This document shows positions 40,145 to 48,711 of a stretch of DNA of 64,000 bases, piece after piece. Source of the stretch: Glycomyces arizonensis DSM 44726. Lineage in GTDB: Bacteria; Actinomycetota; Actinomycetes; Mycobacteriales; Micromonosporaceae. The first letter of the stretch is position 1. Every line of letters starts with the position of its first letter. The notes beneath the pieces are model-generated. The model was not told the origin of the DNA. It saw nothing but the letters and a program-made list of their open reading frames with translations, and did no database searches. The stretch is from contig NZ_AXWO01000004.1 in assembly GCF_000482705.1 (NCBI RefSeq), forward strand, positions 186,001 to 250,000, given 5' to 3'. Both the position numbers and the translations under genes were made by a program.

Positions 40145-41338
40145 CTACGCCTTCAGGTTCACGATCTTGCCGTGCGCCATCTCGTTACCGGGCATGAGAC
40201 CGACCTCGCCGTAGAGCTGGGTCTTCTCGTTCGCGCCGGTCTTGGCGAGCGCCTCGGCGAAGAAGTGGCCCTTGCCGGGGGTCTCCCGGTACACGGGCAT
40301 GCACTGCTCCATGGAGACGATCGCGAGCTGCGAGGCGGGCATGTGCCGGTTGAGCATGACGTTCAACGGCCCGAAATCGGTGTTGATCCGGTCGACGGTC
40401 ACGCCGCCGACGTTGCCCTGGAGCTCCTTGGTGACGTACCCCTCGGAGCTGTAGGCGGCGGTGACGGCGCGCTTGAGACCAGAGTTGACCATGATCGTTG
40501 CGGTCGCGTTCTCCTGGATGCCGCCGTTGTCGTAGGCGAGCTGGCACACCGAGTCGACGTGGTCCTTGGTGAGGGTCACGGTCACCTTCGTCCAGGACAC
40601 CGAGCCGTCGGCGGTGATGTCGACCGCGGGGCCGTTCTTGACCGCCGAGACCTTGAACACGCCCGTGGTGAGCCCGTCCTCCAGGACGTAGTAGGTGGTG
40701 CCGACGGTCAGCGGGGCCGCGGCGGAGGCGGTCATGACGATCTGGTCCCCGGCGGTGAGGCCGTGCGTGGTCAGGGTGATCAGGTCCGTGGACTCGGCGG
40801 CGGCGCCGGTCTGCGCTGCCTCGGCGTCGAGGGTGATCACGTTCGAGGTGATCGCGGCGAGCAGGCCCCGGGTCTTGCGCGGGGTCGTGTTGTCGGTCGG
40901 CTTCTGGTAGGTGCCGCGGATGAACGAGTATTCGATGTCGCGGACCATTTCCTTCAGCTTCTGCTCCACCTGCCAGTCCAGCTCGTTCGTGACCGGGTTC
41001 GTCGCGTTGTTGTTGACGCCGGCCTTCTGCTGGTCGGCGGCGAGCTTGCTGTAGGACACGCCCACCGAGTCGTGCTGGATCTGCACGATGTTGGTGCGGT
41101 TCGCGCGGACCCGGTTGGTCGGGGTCGGCGCGTCGGCGCCCTCAAGGGCGACGTTCTGGCCCGCGGACCGCAGGTCGAAGTCCTGCCACTCGAACTCGTC
41201 CGAGGAGGTCTGGCCGCCGCCGGACAGGCCCCCGATCGCCGAGAAGAACGGCGTGTCGCCGGGGGTGAGCTGGTGGAGGATGCCGGTGTAATTGGGCAGG
41301 TTGTAGACGGTGCCCAAGCCTGTGATCTTTCCCGCCAT
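40145..41338 (-). CDS. major capsid protein (DUF5309/SU10-like, HK97 fold)
   Basis: 397 residues. N-arm region YNLPNYTGILHQLTPGDTPFF, then the diagnostic DEFEWQDFDLRSAGQNVALEG and NPVTNELDWQVEQKLKEMV followed by RDIEYSFIRGTYQ. This matches the DUF5309 capsid family with a HK97-type fold. An inserted beta-rich part (residues about 165-260) may be a surface domain. Preceded by the scaffold gene. Confidence 0.85.
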   Translation of the reverse strand: MAGKITGLGTVYNLPNYTGILHQLTPGDTPFFSAIGGLSGGGQTSSDEFEWQDFDLRSAGQNVALEGADAPTPTNRVRANRTNIVQIQHDSVGVSYSKLAADQQKAGVNNNATNPVTNELDWQVEQKLKEMVRDIEYSFIRGTYQKPTDNTTPRKTRGLLAAITSNVITLDAEAAQTGAAAESTDLITLTTHGLTAGDQIVMTASAAAPLTVGTTYYVLEDGLTTGVFKVSAVKNGPAVDITADGSVSWTKVTVTLTKDHVDSVCQLAYDNGGIQENATATIMVNSGLKRAVTAAYSSEGYVTKELQGNVGGVTVDRINTDFGPLNVMLNRHMPASQLAIVSMEQCMPVYRETPGKGHFFAEALAKTGANEKTQLYGEVGLMPGNEMAHGKIVNLKA

Positions 41339-41383: not shown

Positions 41384-42100
41384 TTACTGCCCGCCCTGGT
41401 TGGCGAACTTCTGGTTCTGGAGGCGGATGACCTCGCGGGCGTCGCCCTTCTTCTGCGCCTCGGCGATCTGCGCGTCAAGCGACGCCGGGGGCAGGTTGGG
41501 GCCGCCGCCGAAGTCGCCGCCGGAGCGGTGGGCGCCAGCGCCGGGCTGGGCCTTGAACTTCGGGTTTGCGGTGACGAACTCGGTCACGTGCGCTTCGAGC
41601 TTCTGGCCGAAGTCGGCCCCGACGTGATCGGTGTCGAGCTCGGCGAGCGAGTCGAGGAACGCAACGGAGTCGAGCAGTCCGTCGGCGTCGACGCCGAGCC
41701 GGGGCGCGGCGCGGAGGAGCTTGTTCTCCACGACGGTCTCCCACTCGCGTGCGCGCATCTGGTCGACTTGCGCGGACAGCTTGTCGGGGTCGACGGCTTC
41801 GGAGCCGTCGGCATTGAGGCCGTATGCCTTGAGGACCGCATCGCGCTGCGAGGCCGCCGCCTGGGCGTCCTTCTGCGCGGTTTGGTACTTGGTCCGGTAG
41901 TCCGCCTCTTTCGTGCGGCCCTTGGTGATGAGGTCCTGCGCCCACTGGGGGAGCGAGGACACGTCCTGCGGGCCGTCCGGCGCCTGGCCGGGATCGGTCG
42001 CGGGATCGGTGGTGGTTCCCTGCTGCGGGGACGCTTCCGGCGCCTGGCCGGTCGGTCCCGCGTCGGTTGGCGCGCCTGGCGCCTGCGACGGCTGGGTCAT
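41384..42100 (-). CDS. scaffolding protein
   Basis: 238 residues: Pro/Gln/Gly-rich disordered N-terminus, a long helical middle (KGRTKEADYRTKYQTAQKD ... VDPDKLSAQVDQMRARE), and a polar C-terminal end. This composition, directly before the capsid gene, is typical of siphovirus scaffolds that shape the procapsid. Confidence 0.78.
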   Translation of the reverse strand: MTQPSQAPGAPTDAGPTGQAPEASPQQGTTTDPATDPGQAPDGPQDVSSLPQWAQDLITKGRTKEADYRTKYQTAQKDAQAAASQRDAVLKAYGLNADGSEAVDPDKLSAQVDQMRAREWETVVENKLLRAAPRLGVDADGLLDSVAFLDSLAELDTDHVGADFGQKLEAHVTEFVTANPKFKAQPGAGAHRSGGDFGGGPNLPPASLDAQIAEAQKKGDAREVIRLQNQKFANQGGQ

Positions 42101-42147
42101 TGGTTGGGTCCTTTCGGAACACCCGGCCGCACACCGCGGCCGGGAGA

Positions 42148-42768
42148 CTAGTAGTCGCCCTTGAGCGACGTGATCAGCGTCGACGCCTGCTGTTTGGTGA
42201 GCTTGGCGACGCCCGCGCGCGTGGTCGGCATGCCGCCGATGAACCCGCCGCCTTCGCCGGAGCGGCGGCGCTGGCGCATCAGCGACATGATGTAGTCGAC
42301 CTGGCGGGGCGTGGCCTGGCCGGTCATCTGCTGCGGCTGGGCGCCTTTGTCCATCTGTTGCCGGAACTGGCGGCGGCGCTCGGCGATGTCCTTGTCGTGC
42401 TGCTCGGCCGCCCGTTTGATATGCGGGTCGAGGGCGCGGTCGACTTGACGGGCGGCATCGATACTGGGCATGACCCATGTTTTGGTCTGCCGGTCGAATT
42501 TGCCGCCGAGGCGTTTAGCGAGGGCTCGCGCGTCGTCGTGCTCGAACGGGATGTTGACGTTCTTGGGGCGGGTGATACCGCCGATGCGCGGGGCTCGGCC
42601 GTCGCGGTTCCGGTCGGCCCGGGCTCGGTCCCTGGTGCTCGGTTTGCTGGCGGTGGGGTTGGCCCGTTTCCCGTCGGCGCCTTTCGGGCGGATCTTGCCG
42701 TCCTCGGACATGCGGGCGAACGCGGCCCGCTTGGCCTTGAGTGGCAGTTCTAGGAAGTCGAACGCCAT
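42148..42768 (-). CDS. protein with DUF5710-like and DUF3072-like segments
   Basis: 206 residues. After a basic low-complexity start, NVNIPFEHDDARALAKRLGG plus KFDRQTKTWVMP is the DUF5710 signature (also found in primases and topoisomerases as a small DNA-interaction module). The end, TPRQVDYIMSLMRQ ... LTKQQASTLITSLK, is DUF3072-like. Found between scaffold and MuF genes; its role in the virion or DNA handling is unknown. Confidence 0.6.
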   Translation of the reverse strand: MAFDFLELPLKAKRAAFARMSEDGKIRPKGADGKRANPTASKPSTRDRARADRNRDGRAPRIGGITRPKNVNIPFEHDDARALAKRLGGKFDRQTKTWVMPSIDAARQVDRALDPHIKRAAEQHDKDIAERRRQFRQQMDKGAQPQQMTGQATPRQVDYIMSLMRQRRRSGEGGGFIGGMPTTRAGVAKLTKQQASTLITSLKGDY

Positions 42769-42778
42769 GGTTGCCTCC

Positions 42779-44968
42779 TCACCTTGCGGTGCCGATCTGC
42801 TCGCGGTGCGGCTGGCGCTGCGGGCCGGTTTCGGCGACGTGAGCCCGGATCTGGGCTTGCTTGGCGCGGATCTTCTTGCCGAAGGCGGTCTTCGCGGCGG
42901 GGTCGATGACGGCGGCCTCTTGGCGTTTGAGCGCGCGCAGTTCGCGTTCCAGGCGGCGGAGCTTCTGCCGGGCGTGGTCGCCCTCGGGGTCGGCGGTGTG
43001 CGTCGGGACCTTCGTGACCCCAGGCAGGTACATTGATATACGATGGCGACAGTTGGACACGACTAGTCCGCCTGCCACATACCAGCCATCCCCTGTCTGA
43101 AGGTTGTAGACATGCCCCGCAAAATCCCTGACGTCGACCTTGACGACGTCATCCGCCGTTACCTCGCTGGCGAGAGCCCGCACAAGATTGCGCCCACCAT
43201 CGGCGTCAGCCCCGCGTGGGTCAGCAAGCGGCTCAAAGCCGCTGGCGTCTCCCGGTCGCCCCTCGAAGCCCGACGGCTGTCCGCTGAGCAGCAGGTCTCC
43301 TCTGGCGAGGGATGGGCCGTCGATGCCATCCGGATGCACCTCGAAGGCGTCCCTCAGTCCGAGATCGCCAAGCGCGTCAACCGGTCCCAGTCCACCGTCA
43401 GCAGCGTCTTGCTGCGGCGCGGCTACCGCACCGACCGTGGCGAGGCTGAGCGCCGGAAGTGGCAGTCCATGACGGCAGAGCAGCGAGCCGCTCAAGTCGC
43501 CGCCGCCCACGAATCCGTGCGCGGCATGGCCCGAACTCTCGACGATCTCGAACGCCGTGCCCTCGGGAAGGAGCGCGCTCGTTCTCACGCCACCCTCGAA
43601 GAGCTCGAACTCGCCGAGCATCTCGACAGTCTCGGCGTTGACTGCATCCCGCAGAAAGCCATCGGCAAGTACAACATCGACATCGGAGCCGATCCCGTCG
43701 CCGTGGAATTGTTCGGGGGCAACTGGCACGCGGACGGGCGGCATCTGGCTCGACTCCCGCAGCGCGTTGAAGATCTCGCCGATGCTGGCTGGAACCTCAT
43801 GGTCGTCTGGTGTGCTCAGGGCCGGGGTCTCGACATCCGCGCAGTAGCGCAGGACGTGATCGCCTTCCGTGATCTCGCCCGCCGGGACCCAGCCTTTCGG
43901 CGTCAGTATCGGGTGGTTTGGGGTGACGGGGAGTTCATCGCCACCGGCTGTGTGGATGACGACGAGCGGACCCTCATACCAGCGAGCATCAGCCGCTCGA
44001 ACACCGCTGGGCGCTGAAACGGCCACCTCGGCGGGGAAGCAGTTCGGGTGCATCAGTCCGGCGGCGATGGCTTCGCCGACGGTGGCCTTGACGTCGATGG
44101 TGAGCATGTTGAAGTCCTCGATCGCGTGCTCCTCCACACGAGGACCGGCCGGGCCGGAGATCGACAGGACCTGGCCCTCCCAGGGGCGGCAGCGTTTACA
44201 CTCTTCGGGGGCGTTGGAGACGATCACCAGGTCGGCGCCGGCTTGGGTGATCCGGTCGAGGTGGCCCTCGATGCCGGCTTGTGCGACGGCGGTGCGGGTC
44301 GCCATCTCCACGTAGCTCGCGAGCTCCCAGTTGCGGCCGCGCTTGTCGGTGAACCCGGCGACGCCCTTCGACAGCAGGTGCTCCCATGCGACCTGTGCGG
44401 CCCTGAGCCTGGTTTTCGTGCCCGCGAGGACGTCGAACACGGGCTGGCCCATGACCTCGCGGTAGGCGTCGTCTTGCCACCGGAGGACGTGCAGGTGCGT
44501 GGAGGACATCCGCTGCGTGAGCTCCCGGGCGAGGACCATGATCGAGTCGATGCCGGGCAGGTCGGCCCGGAGTGCGGCGACGGCCTCAGCCAGGCGCATC
44601 TCGCGGCGGCGGGCGATCCCGAATAGCCGGGTGATGGCGGCGGCGACACGGGAGCGGCGGGCGAGCCAGTCGACCCACCGTTCACCGGAGAGCCGGGCCA
44701 TCTCGTCGACAGCGGCGGAAGCGCCGCGCGCGTACGCGGTCATGAGCGCGCGTTCGGCCTCGACGGCGTGGCGGCCTGACAGCTCGGCCAGGACCGCCTC
44801 GGACTGGCGCCGGAGCGATGCGAGCGCGGTGAGGCGGTTGTCCGAGGAGGTAGTGATGTCGGTCCGGATGCGGCGGGCGAGGTTCTGCGCGAGGCGGGTC
44901 TCGGCGTCGCGGTACAGGGCCGCGAGGTTGGCCGCGAGGCCCTCGGCGAGCGTGCGCGAGACGGGCAT
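42779..44968 (-). CDS. MuF-type minor capsid protein interrupted by an intein
   Basis: 729 residues; start overlaps the portal stop (TAATG). Extein residues 1-309 and 640-729 together make a normal phage MuF protein: long helical N-terminus, KRCRPWEGQVLSISG, and then the MuF motif HPNCRHRISMYLPG, which is split between Asn309 and Cys640 by the intein. The C-terminal 80 residues are a charged helix. MuF proteins sit at the portal and help head assembly or carry ejected effectors. Splicing would restore HPN-CRH. Confidence 0.88.
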   Translation of the reverse strand: MPVSRTLAEGLAANLAALYRDAETRLAQNLARRIRTDITTSSDNRLTALASLRRQSEAVLAELSGRHAVEAERALMTAYARGASAAVDEMARLSGERWVDWLARRSRVAAAITRLFGIARRREMRLAEAVAALRADLPGIDSIMVLARELTQRMSSTHLHVLRWQDDAYREVMGQPVFDVLAGTKTRLRAAQVAWEHLLSKGVAGFTDKRGRNWELASYVEMATRTAVAQAGIEGHLDRITQAGADLVIVSNAPEECKRCRPWEGQVLSISGPAGPRVEEHAIEDFNMLTIDVKATVGEAIAAGLMHPNCFPAEVAVSAPSGVRAADARWYEGPLVVIHTAGGDELPVTPNHPILTPKGWVPAGEITEGDHVLRYCADVETPALSTPDDHEVPASIGEIFNALRESSQMPPVRVPVAPEQFHGDGIGSDVDVVLADGFLRDAVNAETVEMLGEFELFEGGVRTSALLPEGTAFEIVESSGHAAHGFVGGGDLSGSLLCRHGLPLPALSLATVGAVAAPQQDAADGGLGPVDALGDLGLRDAFEVHPDGIDGPSLARGDLLLSGQPSGFEGRPGDASGFEPLADPRGADADGGRNLVRALASEVTADDVVKVDVRDFAGHVYNLQTGDGWYVAGGLVVSNCRHRISMYLPGVTKVPTHTADPEGDHARQKLRRLERELRALKRQEAAVIDPAAKTAFGKKIRAKQAQIRAHVAETGPQRQPHREQIGTAR
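43052..44041 (-). mobile_element. intein inserted in the MuF HPN/CRH motif (330 codons)
   Basis: Intein residues are 310-639 of the MuF precursor. Block A: Cys310 in CFPAEVAVSAPSG. Block B: TPNH (349-352) in VTPNHPILTPKGWVPAGEI. Block F/G: HVYNLQTGDGWYVAGGLVVSN with terminal Asn639 and Cys640 as +1 residue. The penultimate residue is Ser638 where His is usual. The hint domain ends account for about 110 residues; the middle 220 have no intein homology and correspond to the antisense of a homing endonuclease gene on the other strand (43112-44017). Confidence 0.85.
43112..44017 (+). CDS. Vsr-like homing endonuclease encoded antisense inside the intein
   Basis: 301 residues; GAAGG with an 8-base gap precedes the ATG. 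Order: two HTH units (residues about 9-46, AGESPHKIAPTIGVSPAWVS; and 68-106, GVPQSEIAKRVNRSQSTVSS), a basic helical link, then a Vsr/EDxHD-like nuclease core: VDCIPQKAIGKYNIDIG, VAVELFGGNWH with Asp190, Glu199 and His206, then WNLMVVWC. The form agrees with Vsr-related homing endonucleases that are found in phage inteins and introns, with HTH DNA-binding modules. All of it lies within the intein on the reverse strand, codon boundaries aligned. Confidence 0.78.
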   Translation: MPRKIPDVDLDDVIRRYLAGESPHKIAPTIGVSPAWVSKRLKAAGVSRSPLEARRLSAEQQVSSGEGWAVDAIRMHLEGVPQSEIAKRVNRSQSTVSSVLLRRGYRTDRGEAERRKWQSMTAEQRAAQVAAAHESVRGMARTLDDLERRALGKERARSHATLEELELAEHLDSLGVDCIPQKAIGKYNIDIGADPVAVELFGGNWHADGRHLARLPQRVEDLADAGWNLMVVWCAQGRGLDIRAVAQDVIAFRDLARRDPAFRRQYRVVWGDGEFIATGCVDDDERTLIPASISRSNTAGR

Positions 44969-46656
44969 TACGCCGCCTCGGTCGCCTCAGGCTCGCTCGC
45001 CTGCTCCTCGTCGGCCTCGGTGTCCTCGGGTTGCTCGTCGCCGAAGGACCCGCCGGTGAACTCGCTGGGGTCCTCGGCCTGGCCGATCGCGTACTCCTCC
45101 TTGAGCCGCTCCACTTCGGCTTCGACCTGCTTCGCTTTCCAGTCAGGGTGCAGGCGGCGGGCCTTCTCTTCAAGGGAGATCGCGCGCGCGGATTCGAGGT
45201 TGGCGAGGGTGCGCGATTCGGTCTCGGGGTCGACGGCTACGGCAGGGGGCCATTCGATGAGGGGCCGCTGCGGAACGATCTTGGTGTTGAACTGGTGGGC
45301 GTCGACGGCGAGGAGGGCTTCGAGGATCGCGGGCAGCTCCACACCCCAGTATCGGGCCTTCCTGCCCGTGGTCACGTGGGACTTGCGTTCGTCGGCGTTG
45401 ACCTCGGTGGCGGTGACAGCCTGGCCGCCGTCGGTGAGGCCGAACGTGGCCGCCGAATACCCGGCGGAGGCGACGATGTCGCGCTTGATCTGGTTCACGG
45501 TCTCTTGGTGCTCGGCCCAGCGGATCGGGAACTGCACTTGCGTGATGTCGGTCTTCTCGTCGTCGCCGCCCGCGTTGACGCCCTCATAGAGTTCCCGGTC
45601 GAGGTCGAAGGCGGCGCCTTGTCCGGCGCCGAGGTTCTGAAGGTAGTCGGCGGGGACGATCAGGCGGGCCTTGCCGAGTTCGACGTCGCGGGCCCATGAG
45701 GAGTAGGTGAGGTCGAGGAAGTCGAGGAGGTCTTCGGTGCCGGAGTAGTCGGAGGCGCCGAGCGCGGAGGCGTCGGGGAGTCCTCTCCAGATCCGGTTGG
45801 GCCGCATGTTGGGGACGTAGACCGCGGTAAGTCCGGCGTGGCCGGTGTCGATCTCGTCGCCCCAGTCGATCGAGGACGCGAGACCAGAGGTTTCGGGGAA
45901 GTCGGTGAGGGCGGCGAGGTTCCCGAGGCTCGCGAGGCCGCCGTCATAGACGCCGTGGCGGATGATCCCCCGCGGTGTCTCGCCGGTCCGGTCGACTTCG
46001 TGGCGTTCGAGGTGGCGGACCACGCGGTTGCCGTTGACGAGGATCGACCGCCAGAACGTGACGGCCCACAGGCGGCCGTACCGCCATTCGGGGACGGCGG
46101 CGTCAGGGTGGACAGCAGCGATCCACGGCCGGTCCGGCTCAACCTCCTTGTCCCACACGACACGCAGGTACACCCCGCCCATCGCGGCGGCGATCTCGGC
46201 GGCTTCCAGGAACGCGGCTATGGCGCCGTCGTCGATCAGTTCGTCGAGGCGGGTCTGCGTGGGGTCCTCGGCTTCGTCGTCGACATCCCCGCCTTCGCCC
46301 TGCTCGCCCTCGTCGGGCTCTGTGCCGGGTTCGTCGACGTGTATGCGAATCTTCGGCGGGTCGGAGAACAGCAGATCGGCGGAGGTCGCGGCGACGTCCC
46401 CGGCGAGGGGCACGTGCACCCGCTGGCGGGGCCGAGACTCGCTCTCGGTGTTCCCCCAGAACCAGCGCCTGACGGTGGTGACGAGTCGACCGAGGAAGGT
46501 GCGGCGGGTCTGCGGTGTGGCGGCGCCTTCGTAGACGGCGGCGAGCTGCTCGGGGTCGCCGGAGTGCCACGCGGACCATTCGGCGTACTTGGCGTACACC
46601 GGCTTGAGGTGCTCGGGCGGCCAGGTCTCTTCGGTTCCACCAGTCGGGAGCGGCAT
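44968..46656 (-). CDS. portal protein
   Basis: 562 residues; AAGGGAG before ATG 46656. Signature parts: RRWFWGNTESESRPRQRVHV, DVAATSADLLFSDPP, the IAAAMGGVYLRVVWD region and the long tunnel-helix type segment ETVNQIKRDIVASAGYSAATF. Length and place (between TerL and MuF) are as expected. It forms the dodecameric channel for DNA packaging. C-terminus is very acidic. Confidence 0.88.
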   Translation of the reverse strand: MPLPTGGTEETWPPEHLKPVYAKYAEWSAWHSGDPEQLAAVYEGAATPQTRRTFLGRLVTTVRRWFWGNTESESRPRQRVHVPLAGDVAATSADLLFSDPPKIRIHVDEPGTEPDEGEQGEGGDVDDEAEDPTQTRLDELIDDGAIAAFLEAAEIAAAMGGVYLRVVWDKEVEPDRPWIAAVHPDAAVPEWRYGRLWAVTFWRSILVNGNRVVRHLERHEVDRTGETPRGIIRHGVYDGGLASLGNLAALTDFPETSGLASSIDWGDEIDTGHAGLTAVYVPNMRPNRIWRGLPDASALGASDYSGTEDLLDFLDLTYSSWARDVELGKARLIVPADYLQNLGAGQGAAFDLDRELYEGVNAGGDDEKTDITQVQFPIRWAEHQETVNQIKRDIVASAGYSAATFGLTDGGQAVTATEVNADERKSHVTTGRKARYWGVELPAILEALLAVDAHQFNTKIVPQRPLIEWPPAVAVDPETESRTLANLESARAISLEEKARRLHPDWKAKQVEAEVERLKEEYAIGQAEDPSEFTGGSFGDEQPEDTEADEEQASEPEATEAA

Positions 46657-47904: not shown

Positions 47905-48711
47905 TCACTCCAGTCTGGCGAGAAGCACCTCCAGCAAGGGGCGGTCTTTCTTGGCCGAGTTGCAGGATTGGCAGGCAGGTGCGAGGTTGGTCCAGCGGTC
48001 GGAGCCGCCGTGCATGACCGGGCGGATGTGGTCGATTGCCTCGCTTGGACCTCCGCAGTACACGCACGGGTCGGTGGCGATGAGCGCCCGGTATTCCTTA
48101 GCGCGGCGTCGGCATTCGTCGGTCATGCCTGCGTTGTTGGCGGCCAGGCGTTCGCGCCGGAGGAGGGCCCATCCGCGCGGGCCGTCGGCGGCGCAGTTGG
48201 GGCAGTAGTGGTACGAGCCAGTCTTGCCGAGCGTTCGCGTGAAGACGGTCCCGCATCGGCGGCAGGGGATCTCGGGCTCGGGAGCGCCGCGACGCAGGGT
48301 GGCCTTGTAGTGGCCGATGCAGTAGCCCTTGCCGGAGTGTTTCGCGGTGCACCCGTCGACGGTGCACTGTTCACGGAAGGTCGCGATGGTCTTGAGCGGG
48401 TCTCCAGTGCGGCGGAGCCGTTGGGCGTGCACCCCGCAGTAGCCGCCCGCGTGGTACGGAGCCTCGCATCCGTCGACTGCACACCCGGCGGCCTTCCCTG
48501 CCCCCTGCGGAGGGGCGTCGAAGGGAATCCCTTTGCGCTGGCGCTTGTAGTGCATGGAGCACATGCCCTTGGCGGCGTAGGGTCGTTCGCACTCGTCAAC
48601 GGAGCAGGAGCGCTCGGCCTTCCATATGCGCTGGTAGTGCATTCCGCACATGCCGCGCCGGGAGGCGGCGGGGCGATCGCATTCGGGCACGGAGCATGTA
48701 GATTGGGGCAT
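47905..48711 (-). CDS. HNH endonuclease with four zinc-knuckle repeats
   Basis: 268 residues. Four repeats of C-x4-C-x(8-10)-G-x-C-x2-H (CSVPECDRPAASRRGMC ... CTVDGCTAKHSGKGYC), a zinc ribbon (CRRCGTVF ... CPNC), and a C-terminal HNH domain: CVYCGGPSEAIDHIRPV, HGGSDRWTNLAPACQSCN. HNH enzymes next to TerL are commonly required in DNA packaging; the four knuckles are an uncommon DNA-binding array, so a homing-type role is an alternative. Confidence 0.78.
   Translation of the reverse strand: MPQSTCSVPECDRPAASRRGMCGMHYQRIWKAERSCSVDECERPYAAKGMCSMHYKRQRKGIPFDAPPQGAGKAAGCAVDGCEAPYHAGGYCGVHAQRLRRTGDPLKTIATFREQCTVDGCTAKHSGKGYCIGHYKATLRRGAPEPEIPCRRCGTVFTRTLGKTGSYHYCPNCAADGPRGWALLRRERLAANNAGMTDECRRRAKEYRALIATDPCVYCGGPSEAIDHIRPVMHGGSDRWTNLAPACQSCNSAKKDRPLLEVLLARLE

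Follow-up and report, generated by a model that had tools for sequence, protein, structure and literature searches.

Inteins are described as single polypeptides that carry out both splicing and homing. The name EDxHD presumably covers the group of Vsr-like homing endonucleases that includes I-Bth0305I, which is itself intron-encoded and whose relatives near fractured genes are free-standing. Here we describe a stretch of 64,000 nucleotides from Glycomyces arizonensis DSM 44726 (contig NZ_AXWO01000004.1, positions 186,001 to 250,000; hereafter the window), in which the gene of a MuF protein (minor capsid protein 2) very probably carries a mobile intein with its homing endonuclease gene on the other strand, where that gene sits between blocks A and F and shares the intein DNA codon-to-codon. 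Splicing and homing would here be divided between the two strands of one piece of DNA, and yet be inherited as a unit.

Inteins with an in-frame endonuclease, such as PI-PfuI (1dq3), the Mtu RecA intein, and the LAGLIDADG inteins of mycobacteriophage TerL proteins (see the main text of PMC5050341), resemble the window's element in the HINT fold, in the residues of blocks A, B, F, and G, in the presence of a nuclease between blocks B and F, and in the conserved insertion site. In the window, however, the nuclease is a separate gene on the opposite strand, and the part of the intein that faces it is disordered in the structure model. With the EDxHD enzymes (I-Bth0305I, 3r3p) the nuclease is predicted to share the catalytic fold, but it lies antisense inside an intein and carries two N-terminal helix-turn-helix (HTH) units. 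The nearest case in print, the hidden endonuclease of the ShiLan insertion, in the sections of PMC11855218 that describe it, is likewise encoded in another frame of a phage insert that leaves the host frame open, and has spread among phages; it is an HNH enzyme on the same strand, in an insert with no intein or splicing blocks, whereas here the gene is on the opposite strand and intein blocks are present.

Inteins in the minor head proteins of Salmonella and E. coli phages Snoke, UPWr_S, and vKMB36 are already in print (PMC6776784, PMC8425127, PMC11162368), and the passages of these papers that report the intein mention no opposite-strand gene. We found the same antisense nuclease in Snoke (L153) and UPWr_S1 (L165); vKMB36 is known to us from its printed mention only. 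The words 'opposite', 'antisense', and 'overlap' were not found in the main text of the mycobacteriophage intein survey (PMC5050341), and, among the literature matches listed, no title or abstract dealt with an endonuclease opposite an intein. For overlapping frames in actinobacteriophages, a passage of PMC11855218 cites a preprint on actinobacteriophage inteins of 'non-canonical architecture' (bioRxiv 10.1101/2025.01.02.630785); judging from its title and this citation, it may already describe part of the present family, perhaps the Gordonia members.

The MuF gene occupies positions 42779–44968 of the window on the minus strand; its 729-amino-acid product matched Phage_min_cap2 (PF06152, E 1.6e-47). 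As the first-pass annotation had stated from the letters alone, the frame is open through an insert of 330 codons with intein blocks, and the residues it named (Cys310, T349-P-N-H352, and Asn639/Cys640) were all present. The intein thus delimited, MuF residues 310–639 (43052–44041, minus strand), runs from Cys1 to Asn330, with Cys+1 following, and is inserted at the site HPN|C between the N-extein (44042–44968) and the C-extein (42782–43051); its terminal Asn is preceded by Ser and not by the common His. On the same strand, block A (CFPAEVAVS) is located at 44015–44041, the T349-P-N-H352 core of block B at 43913–43924, and block F (the GHVYNLQ region) at 43094–43117. The catalytic residues C1, T40, H43, and N330 (window numbering), of which T40 and H43 are the T and H of block B, were invariant in alignment A2, which comprised 58 of 145 loci hand-picked for breadth, and in alignment A3. 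The structure model of the intein exhibited a HINT fold, with intermediate confidence at intein residues 80–127 and a predicted local distance difference test score (pLDDT) below 50 at residues 128–157 and 168–277. The centre modelled as disordered (intein residues 128–277; 43211–43660, minus strand) faces the HTH units and the start of the nuclease domain. A Pfam scan of the 729-amino-acid frame found no endonuclease family, and no family in the intein centre; together with the disordered model, this sets the element apart from the inteins with an in-frame endonuclease. We regard it as an intein that would splice.

On the plus strand, wholly inside the intein DNA, we located the antisense nuclease gene at 43112–44017 (301 amino acids). 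It has its own Shine-Dalgarno sequence, GAAGG (43099–43103), which is formed by the intein Leu623 codon CTT and is separated by 8 nucleotides from an ATG that faces His619 (CAT); its stop codon, TGA, faces the Ser318 codon of block A (44015–44017). Throughout the overlap, nuclease codon positions 1, 2, and 3 face sense positions 3, 2, and 1. HTH_23 (PF13384) matched the protein in two stretches (E 2.7e-9), and AlphaFold2 returned a confident model with a fold common to Vsr and I-Bth0305I. From the N-terminus, the model comprises a first HTH unit at residues 10–43 (43139–43240), a second one at residues 67–102 (43310–43417), which contains the best HTH_23 stretch (72–99), a Vsr-like nuclease domain at residues 158–258 (43583–43885) with D190, E199, and H206, and a C-terminal beta hairpin at residues 265–280 (43904–43951; strands 265–270 and 275–280), which faces block B. 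The structural alignment with Vsr extends to residue 280. Residues E164, D190, E199, and H206 were conserved, their match to E-D-x-H-D being judged without residue-by-residue superposition on 3r3p. NCBIfam provided no useful name. The gene with its own ribosome-binding site, its position inside the intein, and the two HTH units followed by a Vsr-like core had all been proposed in the first-pass annotation, and each was recovered here. New relative to that annotation are the placement of the start codon and ribosome-binding site within block F, of the stop codon across from block A, and of block B across from a modelled nuclease strand.

To follow the gene across relatives, a nuclease profile (A1) made from 26 homologues was placed on 146 loci, namely 121 from viral and genome contigs (including the window's own copy, L002), two from genomes of the order, and 23 from named phages. 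Among the relatives in viral_contigs, 80 of 488 were kept, and of 112 phage records that the nuclease matched, 23 were used (L153–L175); weak profile matches (L126–L152) and the window itself (L001 and L123) were omitted. The profile matched 184 of 298 genomes of the order at E 0.001, from which only the three top places (the window's own, G244, and G081) were used, the best match beyond them reaching 62.8 bits over about 100 residues. The 146 loci include near-duplicates, and dereplication by shared 5-mers left 114 of 145; L125 belongs to the 146-locus count only and is outside the sets used for dereplication, omega fit, block F, codon choice, and frame integrity. The first-pass annotation had allowed for a chance frame with neither homologues nor purifying selection; homologues proved to be numerous, and the nuclease gene recurs antisense in other MuF inteins at HPN|C.

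Across from the nuclease, the sense frame was free of stops in the same register over the whole match in all 146 loci. The other two registers contained up to 33 and 17 stops, and neither was stop-free in any locus apart from L125 as read on the wrong strand. The nuclease frame was open in 124 of 145 loci and, in 18 others, had stops only in the last 45 residues. The same open opposite frame was also present in loci with a G+C content (GC) down to 42–44%. In this register, the nuclease codons that would stop the intein are TTA, CTA, and TCA; none of the 931 Leu and Ser codons of the nuclease was of this type, versus 187 of 840 in the N-exteins (24 dereplicated loci, GC ≤0.53). The opposite-strand arrangement is real and widespread, and occurs in phages of distant bacteria.

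With both functions recognisable and many natural variants available, this is an unusually clear case of a long antisense overlap, in which selection can be quantified for each frame separately. We used a log-linear count model with one amino-acid-change factor (omega) per frame, fitted on 19 pairs with 70–98.5% nucleotide identity that were picked greedily, each locus being used once; mutations creating a stop in either frame were excluded. Over nuclease residues 1–250, omega was 0.27 (0.23–0.31) for the nuclease and 0.60 (0.51–0.71) for the intein (11 pairs, ≥79% identity). Over residues 256–301, which face block B, the values were 0.35 (0.23–0.53) and 0.23 (0.15–0.34), respectively (11 pairs). 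When all 19 pairs were used, nuclease and intein omega were 0.39 and 0.72 over residues 1–250 and 0.39 and 0.28 in the block-B zone. The control, which was the same register behind the exteins, presumed to be geneless, gave 0.89 (0.80–0.99) and 1.02 (0.87–1.19), for pairs whose exteins were more than 62% identical in nucleotides and, unlike the main fit, with only sense-frame stops excluded. These substitution patterns showed both frames, each of them kept open, to be under purifying selection, the stronger constraint swapping along the DNA from the nuclease, over its residues 1–250, to the intein, opposite the end of the nuclease that faces block B. Far from lacking purifying selection, the 301-amino-acid frame was thus under stronger constraint than the intein frame over residues 1–250. 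The block-B stretch is dual-coding, with T349-P-N-H352 facing V268–G271 in the nuclease hairpin, which was modelled with confidence.

The sense omega of 0.60–0.72 in the nuclease zone, which is under the control values of 0.89–1.02, would allow for some weak selection on the intein loop. It could also be taken to mean that the centre of the intein forms a functional domain of its own, so that the overlap encodes two working proteins along its entire length, a reading with which the intermediate confidence of the model at residues 80–127 agrees. We consider this unlikely, in view of the pLDDT below 50 at residues 128–157 and 168–277, of the centre matching no Pfam family, and of the nature of the conserved sense-frame motif FHGDG, which is the nuclease core read in reverse and was ruled out as an intein motif for that reason. 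FHGDG is, more generally, a warning that conservation within the central part of an intein may merely mirror a gene encoded opposite to it.

Regarding mobility, Salmonella phages S104 and SETP3 have a MuF gene without the insert, exactly 272 codons shorter at HPN|C than in an intein-bearing Jerseyvirus, and Gordonia phage Bibwit is empty where Vivi2 carries the intein, the two phages being 95.2% and 96.7% identical in the flanks. No significant match to the nuclease was found in the empty alleles of S104, SETP3, and Bibwit, which bears on the question, raised in the first-pass annotation, of whether intein-free relatives lack the gene. When Salmonella virus VSe103 was compared with Escherichia phage GZMU_E2010, the intein was 96.8% identical, versus 70.4% for the N-extein and 81.4% for the C-extein. 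This identity pattern and the empty sites fit a joint transfer of intein and nuclease, although homing is not proven by them. The earlier suggestion that both home as a unit finds its support in the distribution, insert and gene being present or absent as a block.

If the element is indeed a mobile intein with an opposite-strand endonuclease, the capsid precursor would be translated and the intein would splice itself out, carrying the stretch that faces the HTH units and the nuclease core as a tolerated, disordered loop. The nuclease would be produced as a free protein from a plus-strand transcript, its HTH units would locate an intein-less MuF allele, and it would cut close to the codons of HPN|C; the break would then be repaired from the copy that bears the intein, and intein and nuclease would be transferred together. 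Freed from the intein chain, the nuclease could fold independently and have a dosage of its own.

The antisense protein could also be real but have another function, as a DNA-binding regulator or as a nuclease directed against the host or rival phages. Its two HTH units do resemble regulator and resolvase domains, and its cutting activity is a prediction. However, the gene was found only within inteins in the 146 loci (protein-only homologues, which come without genomic context, may stand free), all 114 dereplicated loci have D190 and 113 of them have E199, the predicted fold is that of a homing endonuclease, I-Bth0305I, and insert and gene come and go as one block. A role of this kind is accordingly unlikely in our judgement.

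Further support for the antisense gene came from block F of the intein, whose motif GHVYNLQ, when reversed, reads CTG GAG GTT GTA GAC ATG, a Shine-Dalgarno sequence plus a start codon. Block F was recognisable in 107 of the 114 dereplicated loci (7 were without it). Among these 107 loci, the codon located 9 nucleotides past the block-F Leu codon was ATG in 70 and GTG in 20, and a Shine-Dalgarno-like 4-mer was present in 96. The block-F Leu was encoded by CTC or CTT, which yield GAGG or AAGG, in 93 of 102 cases. The exteins of these loci had CTC or CTT at 951 of their 2496 Leu codons (p 4e-28), and canonical inteins, which form a small control, at 5 of 14 (p 9e-6). Similarly, the block-F His codon was CAT in 70 of 90 cases, versus 129 of 397 in exteins (p 5e-15); in canonical inteins, His before the VY position was observed in none of 20 motif matches. 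These 20 matches, which included the 14 Leu, came from 59 loci, and all were retained, although at least 2 were probably spurious. The codon choices showed block F to double as the ribosome-binding site and start codon of the nuclease.

Overlapping opposite transcripts would be expected to pair, and the antisense transcript might then act as an RNA that damps capsid-gene expression, the protein being secondary; selection on the amino acids and on the Shine-Dalgarno sequence and start codon makes this very improbable. Long antisense frames are common in GC-rich coding DNA, and the two frames are hardly separated by GC at codon positions 1, 2, and 3 of the overlap (0.724/0.495/0.781 for the nuclease and 0.780/0.497/0.727 for the sense frame, a weak preference for the nuclease on which we did not rely), but the idea of a chance open frame facing a remnant in-frame endonuclease has a negligible probability, ruled out as it is by the register open in 146 of 146 loci, by an antisense omega far under that of the control, and by the 0 of 931 stop-linked codons, with the same arrangement at 42–44% GC, the codon choice at the ribosome-binding site, and a confident Vsr-like model versus a disordered intein centre also against it.

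Several observations weigh against a mobile intein with an opposite-strand endonuclease. Two Pfam matches remained under their curated cut-offs, namely Intein_splicing on the 729-amino-acid protein (E 1.9e-6, 28.2 bits, versus 35.8) and REase_MTES_1575 (PF18741) on the 301-amino-acid protein (E 1.3e-5, 25.6 bits, versus 38.2). A simple sigma-70 scan of positions 42000–45000 revealed no promoter-like site for the plus-strand gene, and the idea of the first-pass annotation that expression of intein and nuclease could be timed apart is thus a conjecture. The nuclease frame contained an internal stop in 3 of 145 loci and was split between frames in a few more. The exact empty sites are those of relatives' MuF genes and not of the window's own gene. 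Moreover, the intein of Vivi2 was less similar than the exteins to those of Fosterous or Angelicage, and the pairs L043/L047 and L048/L052 exhibited no clear excess of intein identity over the exteins. Finally, splicing, cutting, and homing by the window's element are inferred from its sequence.

A second, different antisense gene was observed in Gordonia phages. Phage Lennon carries another intein, of 275 amino acids, at this MuF site, where its flanks show about 95% identity, and blastn gave no match between the Lennon and Vivi2 inteins. In the same codon register, the Lennon intein is faced by an antisense open reading frame (ORF) of 236 amino acids (L179:1224–1934, minus strand; Barsten copy in L239) with the motif AYVAAFIDGEG. 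This ORF was present in nine Gordonia records (six phages). Its other tblastn relatives stand free in the genomes of Caulobacter and cyanobacterial phages, where they are labelled endonuclease or hypothetical; among these, CcrRogue gp061 matched LAGLIDADG_1 above the cut-off (E 2e-6) and Cyanophage PP_36 matched it weakly (E 0.003). The Lennon ORF itself had no Pfam family at E 0.1, and no relatives of its protein were found in viral_contigs. We describe it as LAGLIDADG-like, on the basis of a motif seen by eye and of these relatives; its start codon is uncertain. Between Lennon and Barsten, a single pair, the antisense ORF was under purifying selection, with omega of 0.30 (0.20–0.45) for the antisense and 0.61 (0.39–0.96) for the sense frame, and substitutions at sense codon positions 1, 2, and 3 numbered 59, 19, and 35 in the overlap versus 7, 6, and 29 in the N-extein.

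Antisense homing endonucleases are thus probably a convergent architecture of phage inteins, with at least two unrelated families, one Vsr-like with HTH units and one LAGLIDADG-like, opposite MuF inteins with an identical codon register; the larger of the two families would have had block F co-opted as ribosome-binding site and start, and block B dual-coded with a beta strand. The LAGLIDADG-like case makes repeated antisense coding of endonucleases a testable idea.

Gene finders that forbid overlaps miss one of the two genes in such loci. The antisense nuclease was called as a separate protein in P0001–P0150, mostly on short contigs and in some cases under the name very-short-patch-repair endonuclease. 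The record of Salmonella phage PK1 (L157:1905–2714, plus strand) annotates the antisense coding sequence as a hypothetical protein, beside a head morphogenesis coding sequence. In the Guernseyvirinae phages L153, L157, L161, L165, and L172–L175, the nuclease match starts at profile position 56–58, so that these phages seem to have a shortened first HTH unit or none.

The window lies within a 5.05-Mb bacterial genome and the same locus was also found on a 36.9-kb viral contig (L002), so that it is most likely a prophage. Its head module, on the minus strand, comprises a terminase (PF03237), an SPP1-type portal, the MuF/minor capsid protein 2, and an SU10-like major capsid protein (SU10_MCP, PF17236, E 1.5e-82; 40148–41338). 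An HNH endonuclease gene (PF01844, E 1.8e-11) at 47905–48711, also on the minus strand, overlaps the 5' end of the terminase ORF.

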